Part shown: in pieces, positions 8,196-19,906 of the stretch
How positions within the stretch are numbered: the first letter of the stretch is position 1
How the letters are laid out: every line of letters starts with the position of its first letter
Virus record (IMG/VR): IMGVR_UViG_3300044841_000029
Coordinates: 1 to 43,171 of that record
Direction: 5' to 3' (one strand)
DNA: 43,171 nt
From: a virus
The notes under the pieces: generated by a model
Told to the model about the DNA's origin: nothing
The model's input: only the letters and a program-made list of their open reading frames with translations
Databases searched by the model: none
Program-made: the position numbers and the translations under genes

Positions 8196-8818
8196 TTCGC
8201 CACCTCCGTCAGGTCGGCGGCGAACTCCAGCAGGCGTGGTGCGTTGGCGTTGGACAACAGTTCGCCCTGCGACCATTCCTTGAACCGCTCCGCCACCTCA
8301 TCGGCATCGAACGGGCCGCCCTCCTTCTTCTCCCATGCGTCCACCACGGCCTGCTTGGCGGCTGCGAGTGGGTCAGGCGGCGGTGCATAGGAGCGCTCGT
8401 ACGCCTTCTCGTCCGGGTCCGGCTCGTCGGTGGGGATGCACAACGCCTGCAGCAGCGCGATGCGGTAGGCGACGCTCATCGCCTTGGCGGTGCCCTTGTC
8501 GCCGTTGTCCATCGACTCACCGGGGACCGTGACCTCCAGCGAGTCGCCGGCCGGGCCGACGAACGTGTACCGCACCCGCACTGTGACCTCGCGGGCTGGC
8601 TTGTCGCGGCTGGTCCGCACGTCCCGGTAGGACGCGTCGAGCAGTTCGGGCAGCAGCAGCACGCTGTGCTTGCGGAGCACTGGGCCGACCGCGTTGACCA
8701 CGGCGTCTACGCCACGGAACGAATAGTTCTGGTCGGTGTTGCGGCCGGTCTTGCCGACGTTCTGGACCTCGGTCATCACTGCCGACAGCGCGGCGTGGAT
8801 GGTTGGCGTCTCGGTCAT
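8192..8818 (-). CDS. erf: ERF-family single-strand annealing recombinase
   Basis: A 208-residue protein of the ERF superfamily, which anneals complementary ssDNA during phage recombination and genome circularisation or repair. The family core is seen as IHAALSAVMTEVQNVGKTG, the YSFRGVDAVVNAVGPVL block, the VRVRYTFVGPAGDSLEV strands, and the signature DKGTAKAMSVAYRIALLQAL with IPTDEPDPDE after it. The C-terminal 60 residues are a charged helical tail. SSB, RusA and ERF in one operon make a standard recombination set. ATG 8818 overlaps the WhiB stop. Confidence 0.92.
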   Translation of the reverse strand: MTETPTIHAALSAVMTEVQNVGKTGRNTDQNYSFRGVDAVVNAVGPVLRKHSVLLLPELLDASYRDVRTSRDKPAREVTVRVRYTFVGPAGDSLEVTVPGESMDNGDKGTAKAMSVAYRIALLQALCIPTDEPDPDEKAYERSYAPPPDPLAAAKQAVVDAWEKKEGGPFDADEVAERFKEWSQGELLSNANAPRLLEFAADLTEVAK

Positions 8819-9072
8819 GCTGCTGCACTCCTCTGGCGCCGGCGACGCAGGTTCACGCGCTCCTCGTGCGAGAGGCCGCCGAACACGCCATCGCGCTCGT
8901 TGTTGGTCATCGCGAGCTCAAGGCAGTCGCCTCGCACCGAGCAACCTCGGCAGACCCGCTTCGCTTCATCGTTCGCGTCCGGACTTCCCTTGATCGGGAA
9001 GAACAGGTCTGGGTCTTCATCGAGGCATGCGGCTTTAGCCACCCATGGCACGCGGTTCGGTCCGAGGTTCAT
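8815..9072 (-). CDS. whiB: WhiB-family iron-sulfur transcription regulator
   Basis: An 85-residue WhiB-like protein starting at ATG 9072 (ATGA overlap with RusA). The four [4Fe-4S] ligands are C16, C41, C44 and C50, in the C-X2-C-X5-C spacing of the family. The turn motif is GVFGG (62-66) where most members have GVWGG. An Arg-rich tail (RVNLRRRRQR) would contact DNA. WhiB proteins are found only in actinobacteria and their phages, where they act with the primary sigma factor. The mycobacteriophage TM4 WhiB blocks superinfection and represses host whiB2. Here it sits between RusA and ERF. Confidence 0.93.
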   Translation of the reverse strand: MNLGPNRVPWVAKAACLDEDPDLFFPIKGSPDANDEAKRVCRGCSVRGDCLELAMTNNERDGVFGGLSHEERVNLRRRRQRSAAA

Positions 9073-9473
9073 AGCGTTCCGTTCGTGGTGAGAGCCGTGA
9101 CGACCAGCCACAGGGCGGGCATGCGATCAGGCAGGGATGGCGGGTGGATGCGAGGTGCGGACCAGTCGAGGTGCTTGGGGTCGTCGTCGGGGATGACCTT
9201 CGCGTCTCGCAGCCCATCGATTGCAGGTTTCAAGGTGGCCACGAGGTTGTCTGCGTCGTGCCGTACTGCGGTCTTGGGGCGGTAGTGGAGTCGGACGTGA
9301 ATCGCCTGCTGCGGCGGGATCTTCGCGGCCGTGGCGAGGGTGTGCACGTCAGCGCGGATCATTGCCGCCTTGGCGGACTTGGCCTGGCGGGCGCCCTTGG
9401 TCTGGCCGCGGTCGTTCATCGACAGCGGCGGCGCCTCGTATGGGAGCTGCAGGACCCAGCGCCATGCGCTCAC
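9069..9473 (-). CDS. rusA: RusA-like Holliday-junction resolvase
   Basis: A 134-residue protein with a GTG start at 9473 (GTGA overlap). The RusA signature is present: an N-terminal PPLSMNDRG motif (residues 15-23) with a Lys-rich loop, and the acidic cluster HDADNLVATLKPAIDGLRD (72-90) followed by VIPDDDPKHL. D73, D75 and D90 correspond to the metal-binding aspartates. It cuts four-way junctions and so resolves replication and recombination intermediates before packaging. Confidence 0.93.
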   Translation of the reverse strand: MSAWRWVLQLPYEAPPLSMNDRGQTKGARQAKSAKAAMIRADVHTLATAAKIPPQQAIHVRLHYRPKTAVRHDADNLVATLKPAIDGLRDAKVIPDDDPKHLDWSAPRIHPPSLPDRMPALWLVVTALTTNGTL

Positions 9474-12712: not shown

Positions 12713-12904
12713 CTAGGCCGCGGTCCGTTTCCGGGCCGCGATGAACGCCTCCAGGTCCCTCACGTCAATGCGCGAGTCGGATCCACGGGTGGCGATGTTC
12801 ACGACAGGCAGTTCGCCGCGGGCGATGTACTGGTAGACCGTGTCGCGGTGGACGTCGAGGATCTCGGCGGCCCGCTTGACCTTCACCAGCTGCGGGGTGG
12901 TCAC
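12713..12904 (-). CDS. Excisionase-family helix-turn-helix protein
   Basis: A 63-residue protein, GTG start at 12904 overlapping the upstream stop. Nearly the whole length is the HTH_17 fold: LVKVKRAAEILDVHRDTVYQ, YIARGELPVVNI, then a SRIDVRDLEAFIAARKR wing and helix. It is the third gene of the leftward operon. It could be an RDF or an early regulator; another Xis candidate lies at 15832. Confidence 0.8.
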   Translation of the reverse strand: MTTPQLVKVKRAAEILDVHRDTVYQYIARGELPVVNIATRGSDSRIDVRDLEAFIAARKRTAA

Positions 12905-13030: not shown

Positions 13031-13225
13031 TCAGGCAACATCGGAGCGCTCCTTGGTGAAGGCCTCGAGGTCCTCGGCGGCGATCCGCTTGCGGGACTTC
13101 AGGCCGGGCCGGGGGTGGTGCTGGACGGTGGGAAGCTCGCCCCCACGGATGAGCCGCCAGACCGTGGAGCGGCTGACACCGAGACGCTCCGCCGCCTCAT
13201 CGGGGGTGTAGACGGTCTGTTCCAT
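13031..13225 (-). CDS. Cro-position helix-turn-helix protein
   Basis: A 64-residue protein, first gene of the leftward early operon and divergent from the repressor. It starts at ATG 13225 with AAGG upstream. The HTH_17 fold is clear: VYTPDEAAERLGVSRSTVWR, LIRGGELPTVQ, KSRKRIAAEDLEAFTKE. By position it corresponds to Cro or Xis of other actinobacteriophages. It would be made when the leftward promoter (13273-13301) is free of repressor. Confidence 0.8.
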   Translation of the reverse strand: MEQTVYTPDEAAERLGVSRSTVWRLIRGGELPTVQHHPRPGLKSRKRIAAEDLEAFTKERSDVA

Positions 13226-13256
13226 GGTGTGCCTTCCTGCCGGATCCTGTACCAAA

Positions 13257-13301
13257 CTGTGCCAGTGGTAGGACCGTACTCCCGGCGCGTACCCTCCGCA
13301 A
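13257..13301 (-). promoter_or_regulatory. Leftward early promoter with operator at the start site
   Basis: On the minus strand, TTGCGG (13296-13301) and TACGGT (13273-13278) are separated by 17 bp. They fit a sigma-A type promoter for the early operon. A TGGCAC box (13259-13264) lies where transcription would start, so a bound repressor would block it. A further copy of the box (13322-13327) lies just upstream. Confidence 0.45.
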
Positions 13302-13346
13302 CCTTTTGGTGAACTCTTTCTGTGCCAATCTGCCCGAAACTAGCCG

Positions 13347-13420
13347 TAGACGTTCCAATCTGTATCAGGTACGGTGGCACCACTTGGCACACGTTGGCTG
13401 CCCCTGGCACAGAAAGGCAC
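13347..13420 (+). promoter_or_regulatory. Repressor promoter and five phased TGGCAC operator boxes
   Basis: TAGACG (13347-13352) and TACGGT (13370-13375) with a 17-bp spacer make a rightward promoter candidate. From there, six-base boxes start at 13375, 13385, 13395, 13405 and 13415 as TGGCAC, TGGCAC, TGGCTG, TGGCAC and AGGCAC, each exactly 10 bp from the last. The array covers the start of the repressor transcript, which suggests autoregulation by protein bound along one face of the DNA. Confidence 0.55.
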
Positions 13421-13429
13421 AAATACCGG

Positions 13430-13768
13430 ATGATCCACTACATGATCGACAACAGTGGTCGTGCCCGCATTGGGGAGTTCGTCAGAAAGGCCATCGCCTG
13501 GAAGCAGACATCGGCCGTGAAGGTCGCAGCCATGACGGGCCGGCCGAGCCGCCAGACCATCCAACGGATCGTCGCTGGGGAGGAGGTCTCGGAGATGAGC
13601 CTGATGGCGCTGGGGACCAAGTTGGGGCTACCGGCCGACTACCTGCTCTACGTCGGCACTGGGGATATCCCGAGGATCCGCCGGTCCGGTGCGGACCCGG
13701 ATTTGATCAGAGTCACGCTCGAGCTGATCCAGCCAGACGAGTCCGACGCCGGCTACAACCACGCATAA
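13430..13768 (+). CDS. Immunity repressor (helix-turn-helix)
   Basis: A 112-residue protein, first rightward gene of the lysogeny module and divergent from the early operon. A helix-turn-helix lies at about residues 29-50 (AVKVAAMTGRPSRQTIQRIV), with a following helix (MSLMALGTKLGLPADYLLYV) typical of small XRE-like repressors. The C-terminal 40 residues are polar. The start at 13430 is chosen because the upstream DNA is an operator array; ATG 13442 is an alternative. No good ribosome site is seen before 13430, so a leaderless or weakly translated message is possible. It would bind the TGGCAC boxes and keep the prophage silent. Confidence 0.75.
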   Translation: MIHYMIDNSGRARIGEFVRKAIAWKQTSAVKVAAMTGRPSRQTIQRIVAGEEVSEMSLMALGTKLGLPADYLLYVGTGDIPRIRRSGADPDLIRVTLELIQPDESDAGYNHA

Positions 13769-13792: not shown

Positions 13793-14308
13793 ATGCCGCC
13801 CGTTGTACAAACGATTGAGTCCCAATCGAGACCTGCACTGCGTAACGAAACGTCACTGGGGGTAGATACACGGCTTGTGGCCCGATTGAGGCGACCGCCG
13901 GGGGGCTACGAACTCATACGAGGGTTCTTCGGGAGGAGCGTGTCTGTGCGACGTAAGGTCGATGGGAGATTCGCAGGGTTCGCGGTAGTGGCAGTGGGGG
14001 TCGTGATCGTTGTGTGGACCAATATTCAAGAGCCCGATCTGATGAGCATCGGGCGGGTACTGATCATCGTGGGTGCGTTGACCGCGTTCGGCGCGATGCT
14101 CAAGGCGTTCGCCAAGATGCTGACCGCGTTCTCGGCGATGCTGAAGGAGCGGACAGGCGCGACTCATGAGGCCTTCCTCACCGGGCGCGACGTGGGCCGC
14201 GAGGAAGGCTACGAGGAAGGCTTCCTGGCGGGCCAGAAGGCCAAGCCGGAGCGGCCGGTCCTAGTCGACCTGGCCGACCACATCGAGCGCAACCGCGCTG
14301 GCATCTGA
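13793..14308 (+). CDS. Two-span membrane protein in the lysogeny module
   Basis: A 171-residue protein between repressor and integrase. Two hydrophobic helices are clear: FAGFAVVAVGVVIVVW and GRVLIIVGALTAFGAMLKAF. A charged cytoplasmic tail (GREEGYEEGFLAGQKAKPE) follows. ATG 13793 has GGGGGAG upstream; GTG 13946, preceded by GGGAGGAG, would give a 120-residue form starting VRRKVDGRF. Membrane proteins expressed from prophage lysogeny modules often act in superinfection exclusion; this is inference from position only. Confidence 0.7.
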   Translation: MPPVVQTIESQSRPALRNETSLGVDTRLVARLRRPPGGYELIRGFFGRSVSVRRKVDGRFAGFAVVAVGVVIVVWTNIQEPDLMSIGRVLIIVGALTAFGAMLKAFAKMLTAFSAMLKERTGATHEAFLTGRDVGREEGYEEGFLAGQKAKPERPVLVDLADHIERNRAGI

Positions 14309-14384: not shown

Positions 14385-15503
14385 ATGGCGCACATTCGGA
14401 AGCTGAAGTCGGGCCGGTGGCAGGCCACGATCCGCCACCCGTCCGGCCAGCGCTGGTCCCGGACCGACCCACTTAAGCGGGTCGTCGCCGAGTGGGCCGC
14501 CGAGCAGGAAGCCCGGATACGCCGCGGGGACTTCATCGATCCGACCGCCGGCAAGATGACCCTTGCGGATTGGTGGGCCAAGTGGTCCGCCACCCGCCGG
14601 GTCGAGGCCGCGACGACAGACAAGAACGCCTCCTGGTGGCGCAATCACATCGAGCCCCAGTTCGGACCGTGGCCGATCGCGTCGATCCACTCCTGGGACG
14701 TCGAGGCGTGGATCACCGACATGACCGGCGCGGTCGGGGCTGAGACCGTGGCCTCATCCCTGCGGTTGCTGACGCAGATACTGAATGCCGCGGTGAAGCA
14801 TCAACTCCTGGCCACCAACCTGGCCGCACTGGTGAAGGCGCCCACGCCCCCGAAGCACGTCGATAGGTTCCTGTCCCACGACGAGGCTGAGCAGCTGCTC
14901 GAGCAGTTCACCGGCGAGGACCAGTTGTTCGTCGAGACGCTGCTCTACACCGGGGTCCGCTGGCAGGAGGCCGCAGGGCTGAGGGCGTTCCGGGTGGACC
15001 TGCTGCGGAAGCGGATCCAGATCGAGAAGGTGCGACCCCGCCGAGGTCCGGACAAGAAACCGAAGTCGGATGCCGGGACCAGGCCGGTTCCCCTGACCGA
15101 CGGGCTGACGGTCCAACTCTCGCGGCACATCACCGAGCCGGGGGAGGCACTGGTGTTCACCTCGCCCAACGGGAAACCGCTGCGCTACCCGAACTGGTTG
15201 CGCCGGGTCTGGGCGCCAGGTCTGGCCAAAGCGAAGCTGGCGGATCCGCAACCGACACCGCATGACCTGCGGCACACGTACGCATCATGGCTGGCTGACG
15301 CTGGCCGGCCGCCACACGAGATCGCGGCGATCATGGGGCATGCGTCCCTCCAGTCGGTGCAGCGATACCTGCATGCGTCCGAGGCTCGATTCGAGGGGGC
15401 GCGTGACGCGCTGGGCGAGCGGCAGGAGAGCGGCAGGAGCACCCATCCCCGACCGACCCCGACCGACCCTAGCCGACAGATTTCACGCTCAGAGGAGGGG
15501 TGA
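14385..15503 (+). CDS. int: Tyrosine-family integrase
   Basis: A 372-residue site-specific recombinase with AAGGGAG before ATG 14385. The N-terminus (RKLKSGRWQATIRHPSGQR) is the arm-binding domain, followed by a SAM-like core-binding domain (about 60-150). Catalytic residues are R192 in YTGVRWQE, H293 and R296 in HDLRHTYAS, H319 in MGHAS, and the nucleophile Y328 in QRYLHA. attP lies directly downstream, and one pair of arm-type repeats is inside the last codons. It joins attP with a host tRNA-Val(TAC) gene, judging by the core sequence. Confidence 0.96.
   Translation: MAHIRKLKSGRWQATIRHPSGQRWSRTDPLKRVVAEWAAEQEARIRRGDFIDPTAGKMTLADWWAKWSATRRVEAATTDKNASWWRNHIEPQFGPWPIASIHSWDVEAWITDMTGAVGAETVASSLRLLTQILNAAVKHQLLATNLAALVKAPTPPKHVDRFLSHDEAEQLLEQFTGEDQLFVETLLYTGVRWQEAAGLRAFRVDLLRKRIQIEKVRPRRGPDKKPKSDAGTRPVPLTDGLTVQLSRHITEPGEALVFTSPNGKPLRYPNWLRRVWAPGLAKAKLADPQPTPHDLRHTYASWLADAGRPPHEIAAIMGHASLQSVQRYLHASEARFEGARDALGERQESGRSTHPRPTPTDPSRQISRSEEG
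15417..15438 (+). repeat. Left attP arm: tandem 11-bp repeat pair
   Basis: Two adjacent copies of GAGCGGCAGGA inside the 3' end of int. A matching pair in the same orientation lies at 15647-15668, on the other side of the tRNA-like core. Paired, directly oriented arm sites around a core are the arm-type binding architecture of lambda- and L5-type integrases. Confidence 0.65.
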
Positions 15504-15510
15504 CATGGCC

Positions 15511-15594
15511 CTGACCTGCACGTTGTACTTCCCTTACAAGGAAGATGTCGCAGGTTCGAATCCTGCTGTGCCCACAGGTGAACGTGCAGGTCAG
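15511..15594. other. attP: attP core from tRNA-Val(TAC) inside a 14-bp inverted repeat
   Basis: 15528-15574 matches the 3' part of a tRNA. It shows an anticodon arm (CTTCC/GGAAG stem, loop CTTACAA, anticodon TAC for valine), a 5-base variable loop, a T arm (GCAGG-TTCGAAT-CCTGC), and the acceptor strand TGTGCCC plus A. The 5' half of a tRNA is absent, so this is an attachment core and not a tRNA gene. It is enclosed by perfect 14-bp inverted repeats, CTGACCTGCACGTT at 15511-15524 and AACGTGCAGGTCAG at 15581-15594. Only one core copy is present, which supports the unintegrated form. Confidence 0.85.
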
Positions 15595-15606
15595 AGCCAC
15601 ATTGCA

Positions 15607-15637
15607 GCCCCTCTGGATGGATCCCAGAGGGGCTTTT
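15607..15637 (+). terminator. Rho-independent terminator after int
   Basis: A perfect 10-bp stem GCCCCTCTGG/CCAGAGGGGC with a 7-base loop followed by TTTTCC. It ends the repressor-integrase transcript. It lies between the attP core and the right arm repeats. Confidence 0.85.
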
Positions 15638-15685: not shown

Positions 15686-15835
15686 CTACCAGCAGTCCGG
15701 GCAGGCGCTGTACTTGCACTCGCTGCACCATGTCCGCCGCATCACCGGGTGCCACCAATAGAACATCACGGCCTTGCCGTAGGCGCCGCAGCACCAGCAG
15801 CCGAGGCCTGCCCGCCTCGCCAGCCAGCGGATCAT
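15686..15835 (-). CDS. Small Cys/Trp-rich protein beside attP
   Basis: A 49-residue frame from ATG 15835, overlapping the excisionase TGA as ATGA. It starts MIRWLARRAGLGCWCCGAYG, then FYWWHPVMRR and CSECKYSACPDC. Seven cysteines fit a zinc ribbon. Translational coupling to xis suggests joint expression. Function unknown. Confidence 0.5.
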   Translation of the reverse strand: MIRWLARRAGLGCWCCGAYGKAVMFYWWHPVMRRTWCSECKYSACPDCW

Positions 15836-16014
15836 TCGGAGTCCTTCAGCGCGAGCACATCGCCGCGCCTGAACAGGTATGCCCCAGTTGGCCCGGGCAG
15901 CTTGCCGGCGGGCTTCAACCGGCCGCGGTCAACCCAGCGTTTCACCGTGGACCGGTCGACTCCGAGGAGCTCGCATACCGCTGACGTCCCGATGAGGTCC
16001 CCCGGCTTCTCCAT
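15832..16014 (-). CDS. xis: Excisionase / recombination directionality factor candidate
   Basis: A 60-residue MerR-like winged helix protein: LIGTSAVCELLGVDRSTVKR, WVDRGRLKPAGK, then AYLFRRGDVLALKD. It is read toward attP from the side opposite to int, the usual neighbourhood of an RDF. AGGATC precedes ATG 16014. Its family is clear; the Xis role is inferred from size and closeness to attP. After integration it would lie at the other prophage end from int. Confidence 0.7.
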   Translation of the reverse strand: MEKPGDLIGTSAVCELLGVDRSTVKRWVDRGRLKPAGKLPGPTGAYLFRRGDVLALKDSE

Positions 16015-16769: not shown

Positions 16770-17624
16770 ATGAGCGACAACTTATCGAAACACTCTGGTG
16801 TGGATCGGCTGCGGGTAGCGGCTGCTGCCGCGTCGCAGGTCCGGGCGCTGTCCACTCATCCCGACGTGGTGGCGTTGCGGGTGGAGTCGATCCGAACCCA
16901 GGTGGACGTGCTGATGTGGCTGGGCATCGTGCTCGGTCTCGCGTTCACGATGGTGAACGTTCAGGACTTCGCCGCGGGCGGCGCGGCTGTGTTCTCCCTG
17001 GCATGGTTCGCTGCCTGGCTCCTCGACCCGATGGTGTCGCTGGTGCTGATCGCGGTACTGCGCGCTGAGCAGATCACCGCCCGGTACCAGGTCAGCGACG
17101 TCGGTCCGTGGATCGGCCGGACGAAGGTCTTCGCCTTCCTCGCCACCTACGCGATGAACACGTGGTCGTCGTGGCTGGCTGTCGACGTGGCCGGCATCGT
17201 GCTGCACTCGGTGCCGCCGTTGCTGGTGTTCTGCGCTGCCGAGACCGCCCCAGTCCTGCGGGACCGGCTGACCGAAGCGGTGCTGCGGGCCGAGCAGGCT
17301 GCCGCGCTGGCTGACCCGCGGAAGGCCGCTGAGCCGCTGGAGATACCCCCCGCCGCAGTAGAGATCCCCCCCGCCCATGTAGCTCGCAAGCCCGCCAAGC
17401 CCCGCCAGAAGGCAGCCGCGAAGGGCGGCCGGAGGTTGCTGGCCGACTACGTGGCCGACGCCCTGGCAGCCGTTGAGCCGGGCGTGAAGATCACTCCCGC
17501 GTGGGCTCGCCGGGTCAGTGGCTGCTCGGCCGGCCTTTCGGTCAAGGTCGCTGCCGCTGTCCGCAACGAGTTGACCACTGACGACGCGGCTGGCACGGGC
17601 GACCTCGCTCGTGCGGCGGCTTGA
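16770..17624 (+). CDS. DUF2637 (SpdB-like) membrane protein
   Basis: A 284-residue protein with GGAGG upstream of ATG 16770. Four membrane helices lie at about residues 46-66 (VLMWLGIVLGLAFTMVN), 72-99 (FSLAWFAAWLLDPMVSLVL), 121-141 and 142-160, the DUF2637 topology. A Pro/Ala-Lys linker follows (AKPRQKAAAKGGRR). A C-terminal helical domain of about 55 residues (LLADYVADALAAVEPGVKI) may bind DNA. DUF2637 proteins accompany TraB/FtsK translocases in Streptomyces plasmids and AICEs, where Spd proteins are linked to plasmid spread along the mycelium. Here the stop is 20 bp before the FtsK-like gene, so the pair is probably co-translated. Confidence 0.8.
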   Translation: MSDNLSKHSGVDRLRVAAAAASQVRALSTHPDVVALRVESIRTQVDVLMWLGIVLGLAFTMVNVQDFAAGGAAVFSLAWFAAWLLDPMVSLVLIAVLRAEQITARYQVSDVGPWIGRTKVFAFLATYAMNTWSSWLAVDVAGIVLHSVPPLLVFCAAETAPVLRDRLTEAVLRAEQAAALADPRKAAEPLEIPPAAVEIPPAHVARKPAKPRQKAAAKGGRRLLADYVADALAAVEPGVKITPAWARRVSGCSAGLSVKVAAAVRNELTTDDAAGTGDLARAAA

Positions 17625-17644
17625 TCGAGACGGGAGACAGGTTC

Positions 17645-19906
17645 ATGGACAACATTCATACCCTTCACGACAACAGCCGCGTCGAGGTTCACGAGACCGT
17701 TCACGAAGACGTTCACGAAGACGTTCAGGACGAGGCTCACGGCATCGTTCATGGGGATGCCGAGCGCGTGCCCGTTGTGGTGCCCGATGGTGTTCACGGC
17801 GCGATGGAACGTCAGGTGATTGAGGGCGAGATCCTGACCGAGGATGAGGATGCCGAGCTGGACCGCCGGTTGGCGAACCGCGGCGCACTGGTTCGCCGCG
17901 CGGTGAACACTGGCCAGGTCGCAACCCGCGCCGTGGTCAAGGTCAGCACCCACGACCGGACCAAGACGGTCGGCAAGGTCGTGCTGCGGGAGTCGTTCAC
18001 CGTGATCCAGGGCGTGGAGTCGTGGACGAAGCGGGCGTGGGATGCCTCCACCATGGGTGTCCTCCGACGCCAGATCAAGGCCGCTGAGTTAGCCGGTGAC
18101 CGCGAAGAGCTGAAGGAGTGGGTCGACCGCAAGGAGATGGCCACCGAGCGCCGTCATCGCCGCCTGATGGATCTGCCGGCGCTGTTCATCGGCGTCGTGA
18201 AAGTGTTCGCCGCGCTGGTTCTCTGTGTCCCGCTGGCCGTGCTCGTGATCGCGGTTCTGGCCCAGGCGACAGGCAACGGATCGTTCAGGAGCGTGTGGCT
18301 CGGGTTCTTCGCCGTGATCGGGTTCATGATCGCCGCTATGGCGTTCGTGTGGGGGCTGTTCTCGTTCGCGTTGCCGGGGCTGCTGGTGCTGGCCGCGTGG
18401 CGGGAAGGCAAGCGTCGCGCCGAGCCGCCGATGTGGCTGGTCACGACGGCCGATGAGGCGTGGGACGTGGCGATCGATGAGACCACGATCGCGCAGGCCC
18501 TGAACGCGTTGCGGATCCCGGCCATCACGCAGTACCTGAAGTCGGGCCTGAAGCTGCAGTTCATTACTCCGGCCCGGGTGGACGGGCGCGGCACGCACGC
18601 GATCGTGCGGCTGCCTGCTGGTGTCACGGCGGAGAAGATCGCGCGGCGTCGCGCTGAGCTGGCCACGGGTCTCAGCCGGGCCGCTAAGGAGGTTTGGCCG
18701 ACGACCGGCAGCGAGGCCGGAATCCTGGACCTGTGGGCGGCGGACAAGGGCGCGCTGGCGGAAGGTGCGGGCGAGTATCCCTTGCTGGAGGGTGGTTTGG
18801 TCGACTTCTTCAGGGGCGTCCCGGCCGGCCGGACGCTGCGCGGCGAGCCAATGCTCGCGCCGCTGGCAGAGCGGAACACCATCACCGGCGGCATCCCCGG
18901 TCAGGGCAAGTCCGCCTCGGCGCGGGTGCTGATGATCGGTGCCGCGCTCGACCCGACCGCAGAGCTGCGGATCTGGGTGCCGGACACCAACTTCGACTTC
19001 GAGGTGTTCCGGCCGCGCTGCTCCCGCTACGTGATGGGTTCCGACGCTGAGGCGATCGAGCGGATTCGCGACGATCTGAAGGAGCTATTTGACGAGGTTC
19101 AGGCGCGCGGCGCGCTGCTGGTCAGGTACGAAATCCCTTCTGTCACAAGGGAAATCGCGAACAAGGGCGTCGGGCTGCACCCGCTCGTTGGGCTGCTCGA
19201 AGAGGCGCATGTGGCGCTGTACGACGACACGTACGGCAAGGAGATTCAGAAGTACGTGATCGAGATCGTCAAACTCGGCCGCAAGCGGGGTATTCACCTG
19301 ATCGTGTCCACGCAGGCGCCCACGGCCAAGTCGATGCCGCGCGACGTGACCCGCAACTGCTCCAACGGCGTCGCGTTCGCCGTCAGCGACTACGTGGCCA
19401 ACGATGCGCTGTTGGGTCAGGGCGCCTACTCCGCCGGGCACCGCGCAACCGAGCTGATCCCCGGCATCGACCGCGGAACGTCGATCGTGAAGGGCTTCAG
19501 CGGGGAGCGGTCGGAGATCTTGCAGTGGTACTTCCTCGACGTGTCGAAGGAGAACGACCAAGTGACACCGCTGATCGAGCGCGCGATGGCCGCGATCAAG
19601 GAGCGACGCGGGTCCAAGCCCGGCAGCGCGCCGGTGCAGATCGAGACCCGCGACCTGTTGACCGACCTGGACGAGGTTCTCGGCGATGACCCGGTGTCGA
19701 GCGCGGACGTGCCCGCGTTGCTCAAGCGCCTCGCGCCGACCTGGACCCCGTACCAGGGCATGACCGGCAAGTCGCTGCGGGACGCGCTCCAGAAGGATCA
19801 CGGGGTCAAGGTCCCATCGACCGGGAACCGCTGGCCGATCGATCCCGCTACGGTCCGTGCCGCGATCGTGCGGCGTGAGCAGGACTCGGACGAGCTCGCG
19901 AGTTAA
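17645..19906 (+). CDS. TraB/FtsK-type DNA translocase
   Basis: A 753-residue membrane ATPase with GGGAGA before ATG 17645. Residues about 12-45 are a His/Asp repeat region (VHED units). Two membrane segments lie at 176-208 (ALFIGVVKVFAALVLCVPLA) and 219-252. The motor domain has Walker A GIPGQGKS (416-423, K422), Walker B LVGLLEE (514-520) and a VSTQAPT sensor segment. The C-terminus (SADVPALLKRLAPTWTPYQG onward) is a winged-helix-like domain, as in FtsK gamma or TraB clt-binding domains. Such proteins pump double-stranded DNA between mycelial cells in actinomycete conjugation. No relaxase or RepSA-type gene is recognised. What it does in a phage is open: lysogen-to-neighbour transfer is one reading. 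Confidence 0.9.
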   Translation: MDNIHTLHDNSRVEVHETVHEDVHEDVQDEAHGIVHGDAERVPVVVPDGVHGAMERQVIEGEILTEDEDAELDRRLANRGALVRRAVNTGQVATRAVVKVSTHDRTKTVGKVVLRESFTVIQGVESWTKRAWDASTMGVLRRQIKAAELAGDREELKEWVDRKEMATERRHRRLMDLPALFIGVVKVFAALVLCVPLAVLVIAVLAQATGNGSFRSVWLGFFAVIGFMIAAMAFVWGLFSFALPGLLVLAAWREGKRRAEPPMWLVTTADEAWDVAIDETTIAQALNALRIPAITQYLKSGLKLQFITPARVDGRGTHAIVRLPAGVTAEKIARRRAELATGLSRAAKEVWPTTGSEAGILDLWAADKGALAEGAGEYPLLEGGLVDFFRGVPAGRTLRGEPMLAPLAERNTITGGIPGQGKSASARVLMIGAALDPTAELRIWVPDTNFDFEVFRPRCSRYVMGSDAEAIERIRDDLKELFDEVQARGALLVRYEIPSVTREIANKGVGLHPLVGLLEEAHVALYDDTYGKEIQKYVIEIVKLGRKRGIHLIVSTQAPTAKSMPRDVTRNCSNGVAFAVSDYVANDALLGQGAYSAGHRATELIPGIDRGTSIVKGFSGERSEILQWYFLDVSKENDQVTPLIERAMAAIKERRGSKPGSAPVQIETRDLLTDLDEVLGDDPVSSADVPALLKRLAPTWTPYQGMTGKSLRDALQKDHGVKVPSTGNRWPIDPATVRAAIVRREQDSDELAS
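17687..17758 (+). repeat. Six tandem 12-bp units in the translocase N-terminus
   Basis: Units of the GTTCACGAAGAC type start at 17687, 17699, 17711, 17723, 17735 and 17747, the later ones degenerate. They encode a tetrad repeat of the form V-H-E/G-D. The period of four with histidine every fourth residue would give a His-rich face on a helix. Confidence 0.75.

Follow-up and report, generated by a model that had tools for sequence, protein, structure and literature searches.

Gene organization of the probable control region

We analyzed the complete IMG/VR virus record IMGVR_UViG_3300044841_000029, a sequence of 43171 bases that is referred to here as the window. The genes and elements around the back-to-back pair xis1 and rep are:

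12713..12904, − strand: xis2, second leftward gene, 63 aa, HTH_17/excisionase family (profile matches)
13031..13225, − strand: xis1, first gene of the leftward arm, 64 aa, winged-helix protein of the HTH_17/excisionase family (profile matches, model)
13430..13768, + strand: rep, 112 aa, XRE-like putative immunity repressor (weak PHROG matches)
13793-14308, rightward: open frame with a likely membrane segment, between rep and the integrase gene
14385..15503, + strand: int, tyrosine integrase (profile matches)
15499..15574, + strand: tRNA-like attP region directly after int (Rfam tRNA match)
15832..16014, − strand: xis3, third HTH_17 protein, beside attP (profile matches)

This region is best explained as controlling the lysis-lysogeny decision of a temperate actinobacterial phage. 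Because xis3 adjoins attP, its product is more likely to be the excisionase proper. The tRNA-like attP element (15490-15615), directly past the integrase stop, is matched by Rfam but not by ARAGORN and lies between the halves of a 35-nt inverted repeat (77% complementary), which may represent integrase arm sites. Elsewhere in the window, the lysogeny arm encodes an FtsK/SpoIIIE-type ATPase (17621-19906) with weak similarity to plasmid TraB, which follows a membrane-protein-like frame and resembles a module of actinomycete integrative conjugative elements, and a phage-encoded WhiB-family transcription factor lies at 8815-9111 on the − strand (Pfam E value 1.4e-22).

Five phased boxes precede rep

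The interval upstream of rep contains a direct-repeat array:

13375..13424, + strand: right array, five boxes, one per 10 bp

The boxes TGGCAC, TGGCAC, TGGCTG, TGGCAC and AGGCAC start at 13375, 13385, 13395, 13405 and 13415 of the + strand, exactly as given in the initial annotation, and the last of them overlaps GAAAGG, a ribosome-site-like stretch of rep. The box positions agree with the consensus at 27 of 30 places while the 4-bp spacers (CACT, ACGT, CCCC, AGAA and AAAT) are all unlike, so that the array is no young tandem duplication; conserved boxes beside divergent spacers point instead to selection acting on the boxes. The 10-bp phasing is far above chance. In a motif-free scan for five 6-bp boxes the right array ranked first at step 10 in the whole 43171-base record, and the maximum was 25/30 both in 60 Markov genomes (steps 9-11) and in 3000 Markov regions of 260 bp.

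A mirror-image array runs into xis1

The list of boxes made earlier is incomplete and missed a second array, on the − strand:

13215..13264, − strand: left (mirror) array, five boxes at exact 10-bp steps leftward

Its boxes, read on the − strand, are TGGCAC (13264), TGGTAC (13254), TCCGGC (13244, a poor match in the middle of the array), AGGCAC (13234, overlapping AGGAAGG) and TGGAAC (13224, overlapping the xis1 ATG). The left array has the step and motif of the right array and extends into the beginning of xis1, and it ranked second, behind the right array, in the motif-free scan of the record at step 10. A scoring matrix built from the right array alone and applied to both strands of the record returned the left array as the best non-self match (22.3 bits), the next independent match being antisense to the right array (14.3 bits) and the next elsewhere reaching 13.4 bits. 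Motif and matrix scans of the record found no TGGCAC-type phased array near attP (15499-15620).

The two leaders share a common order, TACGGT, a gap, TGGCACA and then AGGCAC over the ribosome site, and they align through GTACGGT, ACCAC, TGGCACA, TTGG and then CAG-AAGGCACA, an alignment that beats all 1000 shuffles. Because the leaders align and each has a TACGGT hexamer that reads as a weak promoter and a box over a ribosome-site-like stretch, the region resembles two back-to-back copies of a single module made of a promoter and an array.

Putative promoters and additional boxes between the arrays

Four further elements were assigned by reading of the sequence or by motif match:

13347..13375, + strand: putative promoter PR of rep, TAGACG (13347-13352), 17 bp, TACGGT (13370-13375), sequence reading
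13273..13301, − strand: putative promoter PL of xis1, TTGCGG (13301-13296), 17 bp, TACGGT (13278-13273), sequence reading
13322..13332, − strand: CAGATTGGCAC, single box between the promoters, motif match
13352..13362, − strand: CAGATTGGAAC, second copy, overlapping the end of the PR −35 element and the spacer, motif match

In each leader, TACGGT with TAGACG or TTGCGG 17 bp before it reads as a weak promoter; a consensus promoter scan detected neither PR nor PL. The likeness of TGGCAC to a sigma54 −24/−12 promoter was dropped, as its second element is displaced by one base from the proper register and, to our knowledge, actinobacteria lack sigma54.

The two additional boxes (13327 TGGCAC and 13357 TGGAAC, − strand) are 30 bp apart, and both sit in the sequence CAGATTGGMAC, whose two copies lie exactly 30 bp from each other and for which a search of the window allowing one mismatch returned no further copy. 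This pair is a possible Rep site. The longest perfect palindrome arms in 13226-13430 measure 4 bp, where 300 shuffles averaged 5.4 and none gave a shorter maximum. As no arms exceed 4 bp between the genes, a classic dimeric operator is absent, and no lambda-type CI/Cro palindromic operators were found over the divergent promoters (13226-13430); the expectation that the operators are non-palindromic is borne out.

We also considered that the repeats might be coding sequence or act as RNA rather than as operators. An open frame that begins at GTG 13322 does cross the right array in frame with rep. However, a 10-bp step is no multiple of 3, and the mirror array lies on the opposite strand; an RNA element was rejected on the lack of any Rfam match at the leaders and on RNA folding, in which both leaders fold less well than shuffles. 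We regard this explanation as extremely unlikely.

Phased arrays in other phages

A 49% match to Xis1 (locus L130) led to the phage record G041 (IMG/VR 2648501444_000002), in which five TGGACA boxes at exact 10-bp steps lie between an HTH_17 gene and an XRE repressor gene (L308, 2060-2115). There, int adjoins the repressor gene and the gene order is that of the window; the proteins are only distantly related to those of the window. When the upstream regions of 42 HTH_17 genes from other phage records were scanned, G041 was the sole clear case, and the idea that phased arrays are generally enriched ahead of such genes was rejected, with none seen in related records beyond G041. Conservation of the array was absent from TerL-related phage records. 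Two further leads were discarded: the one exact match, TGGCACAGAAAGGCAC in the phage record G017, lies within a tape-measure gene and is ascribed to chance, and the array pattern in 394 Actinomycetes genomes returned almost only perfect or near-perfect tandem repeats, unlike the array of the window.

A wider comparative set comprised TGGACA arrays in viral contigs and WGGCAC arrays, among the matches listed; these scans were seeded with chosen motifs, and the counts are not frequencies. Among the matches listed, an array lay less than 400 bp from the 3′ end of int in 9 of 19 integrase families (1.5 expected), and random placement in the same loci equalled this in 0 of 5000 trials. A control with TerL loci (0/80 near int) was not position-matched, and the same-locus random-position control was therefore used instead. 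The integrase counts come from locally built profiles rather than Pfam; in a Pfam search of 19 array-bearing records, 16 had an integrase. Individual examples include a TGGCAC array in the order HTH_17-int-array (L037) and arrays followed by a tRNA 3′ end (TGGCAC in L085, TGGACA in L365). Pfam HTH_17 was above cut-off in 13/19 array-bearing records searched and in 24/43 phages generally, this being a common family.

The binder cannot be read from the box alone because, among the matches listed, the TGGCAC arrays of Firmicutes-type phages (n = 18) start 4-6 bp past a sigma-region-4-like gene. Each consists of three or four boxes spaced by exactly 10 bp, placed past the stop codon of a sigma-70 region-4-like/DUF1492 gene and ahead of HNH-like and terminase-like genes, and is likely a late-gene control element (loci L010, L014, L020, L026, L028, L029, L040, L050, L056, L057, L058, L064, L070, L077, L084, L099, L115 and L119). 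In a low-GC phage (L106, 8724-8760), an AGGCAC array with 10-bp steps lies between two divergent XRE genes, and the XRE protein could be the binder there.

Candidate DNA-binding proteins

Xis1 belongs to HTH_17 (Pfam E value 9e-15, 55.1 bits against a cut-off of 27) and passes the NCBIfam model 'excise' (TIGR01764, 42.6 bits against 28.8); Xis2 scores above both cut-offs, with 44.7 and 33.9 bits, respectively. The predicted structure of Xis1 (pLDDT 86, from an alignment of 12 sequences) is closest to the solved structures of Pukovnik Xis (Z score of 8.5) and DNA-bound BldC (Z scores of 8.4 and 8.0), values of 8 to 8.5 being modest. A profile search with Xis1 independently finds the Pukovnik Xis and BldC families (4j2n, E value 1.6e-9; 6amk, 1.2e-7; 6ama, 1.6e-7). 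The NCBIfam model HTH_BldC does not match Xis1, and xis3 reaches 23 bits, under the cut-off of 77. For Rep, the matches to PHROG repressor families are weak (E values 0.0035 and 0.008) and no HTH_3-type Pfam match was obtained. No credible relatives of Rep were found in phages, viral contigs or genome contigs (best phage match E 0.1), and the best match in 394 Actinomycetes genomes (E 8e-4) is at chance level for that number of genomes. Its single-sequence structure prediction had a pLDDT of 39 and was left unused.

Arrays of direct repeats one helical turn apart are a signature of excisionase-type winged-helix proteins (PMC7498355, PMC5859096, PMC11963761). Because of this signature, and because Xis1 is encoded directly opposite and similar arrays recur in other phages at integrase 3′ ends, where no immunity repressor is expected, an excisionase-type binder is favored; it appears the simplest reading for such boxes, and Xis1 (or its neighbor Xis2) is most likely the binder. 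The initial annotation had named the 112-residue repressor, an assignment that these observations do not support. Its proposals of boxes on one face of the DNA and of cooperative binding are supported, the likely mode being head to tail.

An extension of the initial reading to both arrays, in which monomers of Rep occupy the boxes head to tail, autoregulate and shut off the leftward lytic genes, is unlikely in our judgment. The arrays flank rep and the lytic promoter, a weak PHROG match gives the protein an XRE-like HTH, and no palindromic operator is available to it between the genes. However, XRE repressors normally bind dyads, whereas one-turn direct-repeat arrays belong to proteins of the excisionase/BldC type and are found at integrase 3′ ends in other phages. 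Also quite unlikely is a competition between Rep and Xis1 for both arrays, in the manner of lambdoid CI and Cro with their shared operators: back-to-back genes, two nearly identical leaders and the lack of a separate palindromic operator would suit such competition, but recognition of one 6-bp box by two different folds (XRE and winged MerR-like) would be unusual, and Rep has an alternative candidate site in the CAGATTGGMAC pair. The idea that an XRE-type repressor chains head to tail on the mirrored arrays, or that it and an excisionase-type antagonist both use them, is doubtful; if it is true, two unrelated folds would be rivals for a single repeat lattice.

A host or other phage regulator, such as an actinobacterial BldC-like protein or the product of xis3, the third HTH_17 protein of the phage, might also be proposed, given that BldC binds direct repeats (PMC5859096). 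However, both arrays lie exactly at the starts of xis1 and rep, and the BldC repeats described have AT-rich cores of the AATT type, not TGGCAC (PMC5859096); we consider such a regulator highly unlikely.

Proposed mechanism

We propose that an excisionase-type protein, most likely Xis1, fills both arrays and represses rep as well as its own transcription at the lysis-lysogeny switch, an account that we hold to be probable. It draws on computed features, namely both arrays, their phase and polarity, the shared layout, the predicted fold and the link to integrase 3′ ends and to the HTH_17/XRE pair; we infer the binder, the promoters, repression and the direction of regulation. Each divergent promoter would be followed by five TGGCACA-like 6-bp sites, one per helical turn, that point along transcription. 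Xis1 (or Xis2) would be made from PL early in infection, and HTH_17-type winged-helix proteins, most likely Xis1, would then bind head to tail and cooperatively, one monomer per box, and bend the DNA. Occupation of the right array would stop rep transcription and favor lytic growth, a Cro-like commitment step, and occupation of the left array would limit the xis1 operon by feedback. In the lysogen, Rep presumably represses PL, perhaps through the CAGATTGGMAC pair (13322-13332 and 13352-13362) or by sharing boxes. The arrays would most likely tune the choice between dormancy and attack. The earlier placement of the right array at the start of the repressor transcript is consistent with the putative PR; autoregulation of the repressor alone is an insufficient description because the mirror array is also present.

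Comparison with known systems

Among characterized proteins of this kind, one RdfS monomer occupies about 10 bp (PMC11963761), and BldC binds direct repeats head to tail and protects tracts one helical turn apart (PMC5859096). Phage 186 Apl recognizes 6-bp direct repeats at 10-11 bp, both in the pR-pL interval and at attP; it is a repressor of the two promoters, and its efficient binding in vitro requires three neighboring sites (PMC7498355). The window resembles the phage 186 Apl and P2-like Cox systems in having several adjacent 6-bp direct repeats one turn apart at the lytic/lysogenic control region and a small winged-helix regulator gene adjoining them: Xis1, by its HTH_17 match and predicted fold, is such a protein encoded at the switch, and the repeats lie over control promoters at their putative positions. 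However, in 186 and P2 a single array lies between promoters that point toward each other, whereas here two arrays of opposite polarity each lie downstream of a putative back-to-back promoter. In Apl/Cox-type systems the protein also promotes excision and a second operator set lies at attP, and the attP of the window (15499-15620) is without a matching array. Because these attP operators are missing, we do not assign the locus to the Apl/Cox system.

The Xis arrays of Pukovnik and L5 are similar in their head-to-tail binding on phased repeats, and Pukovnik Xis is the structurally closest protein to Xis1, but their sites are at attP with a role in recombination, while the arrays of the window are at putative promoters. 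Streptomyces BldC filaments share a MerR-like single-domain protein, about one turn per monomer and an actinobacterial setting; BldC differs as a host developmental regulator with AT-rich sites of little consensus, and its family model does not match Xis1. In Pf4, according to the part of the source available, the excisionase XisF4 and the repressor Pf4r are divergently transcribed and each represses the other; that part describes overlapping 5′ regions (PMC7379572) and no five-box helical-phase arrays. The HTH_17/XRE/int module of G041 has the gene order of the window and likewise carries five boxes spaced exactly 10 bp apart between its HTH_17 and XRE genes, and differs in its TGGACA box and single array, where the window has a TGGCAC-type box and two arrays.

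We found no description of two mirrored arrays at back-to-back genes in the literature searched; the mode of action proposed here fits the known Apl/Cox/Xis lattice principle, and it is the mirrored, doubled arrangement that we did not find described. Lattice operators of the Apl/Cox style are best known from P2-like phages with promoters face to face, and the same principle would here operate in an actinobacterial phage with back-to-back genes and two mirror-image arrays. TGGCAC- or TGGACA-type boxes at exact 10-bp steps are suggested as a search signature for likely excisionase sites, and may mark sites adjoining integrase genes in many uncharacterized phages. The mirrored arrays themselves provide a compact model in which to ask how two promoters are balanced by a head-to-tail filament.
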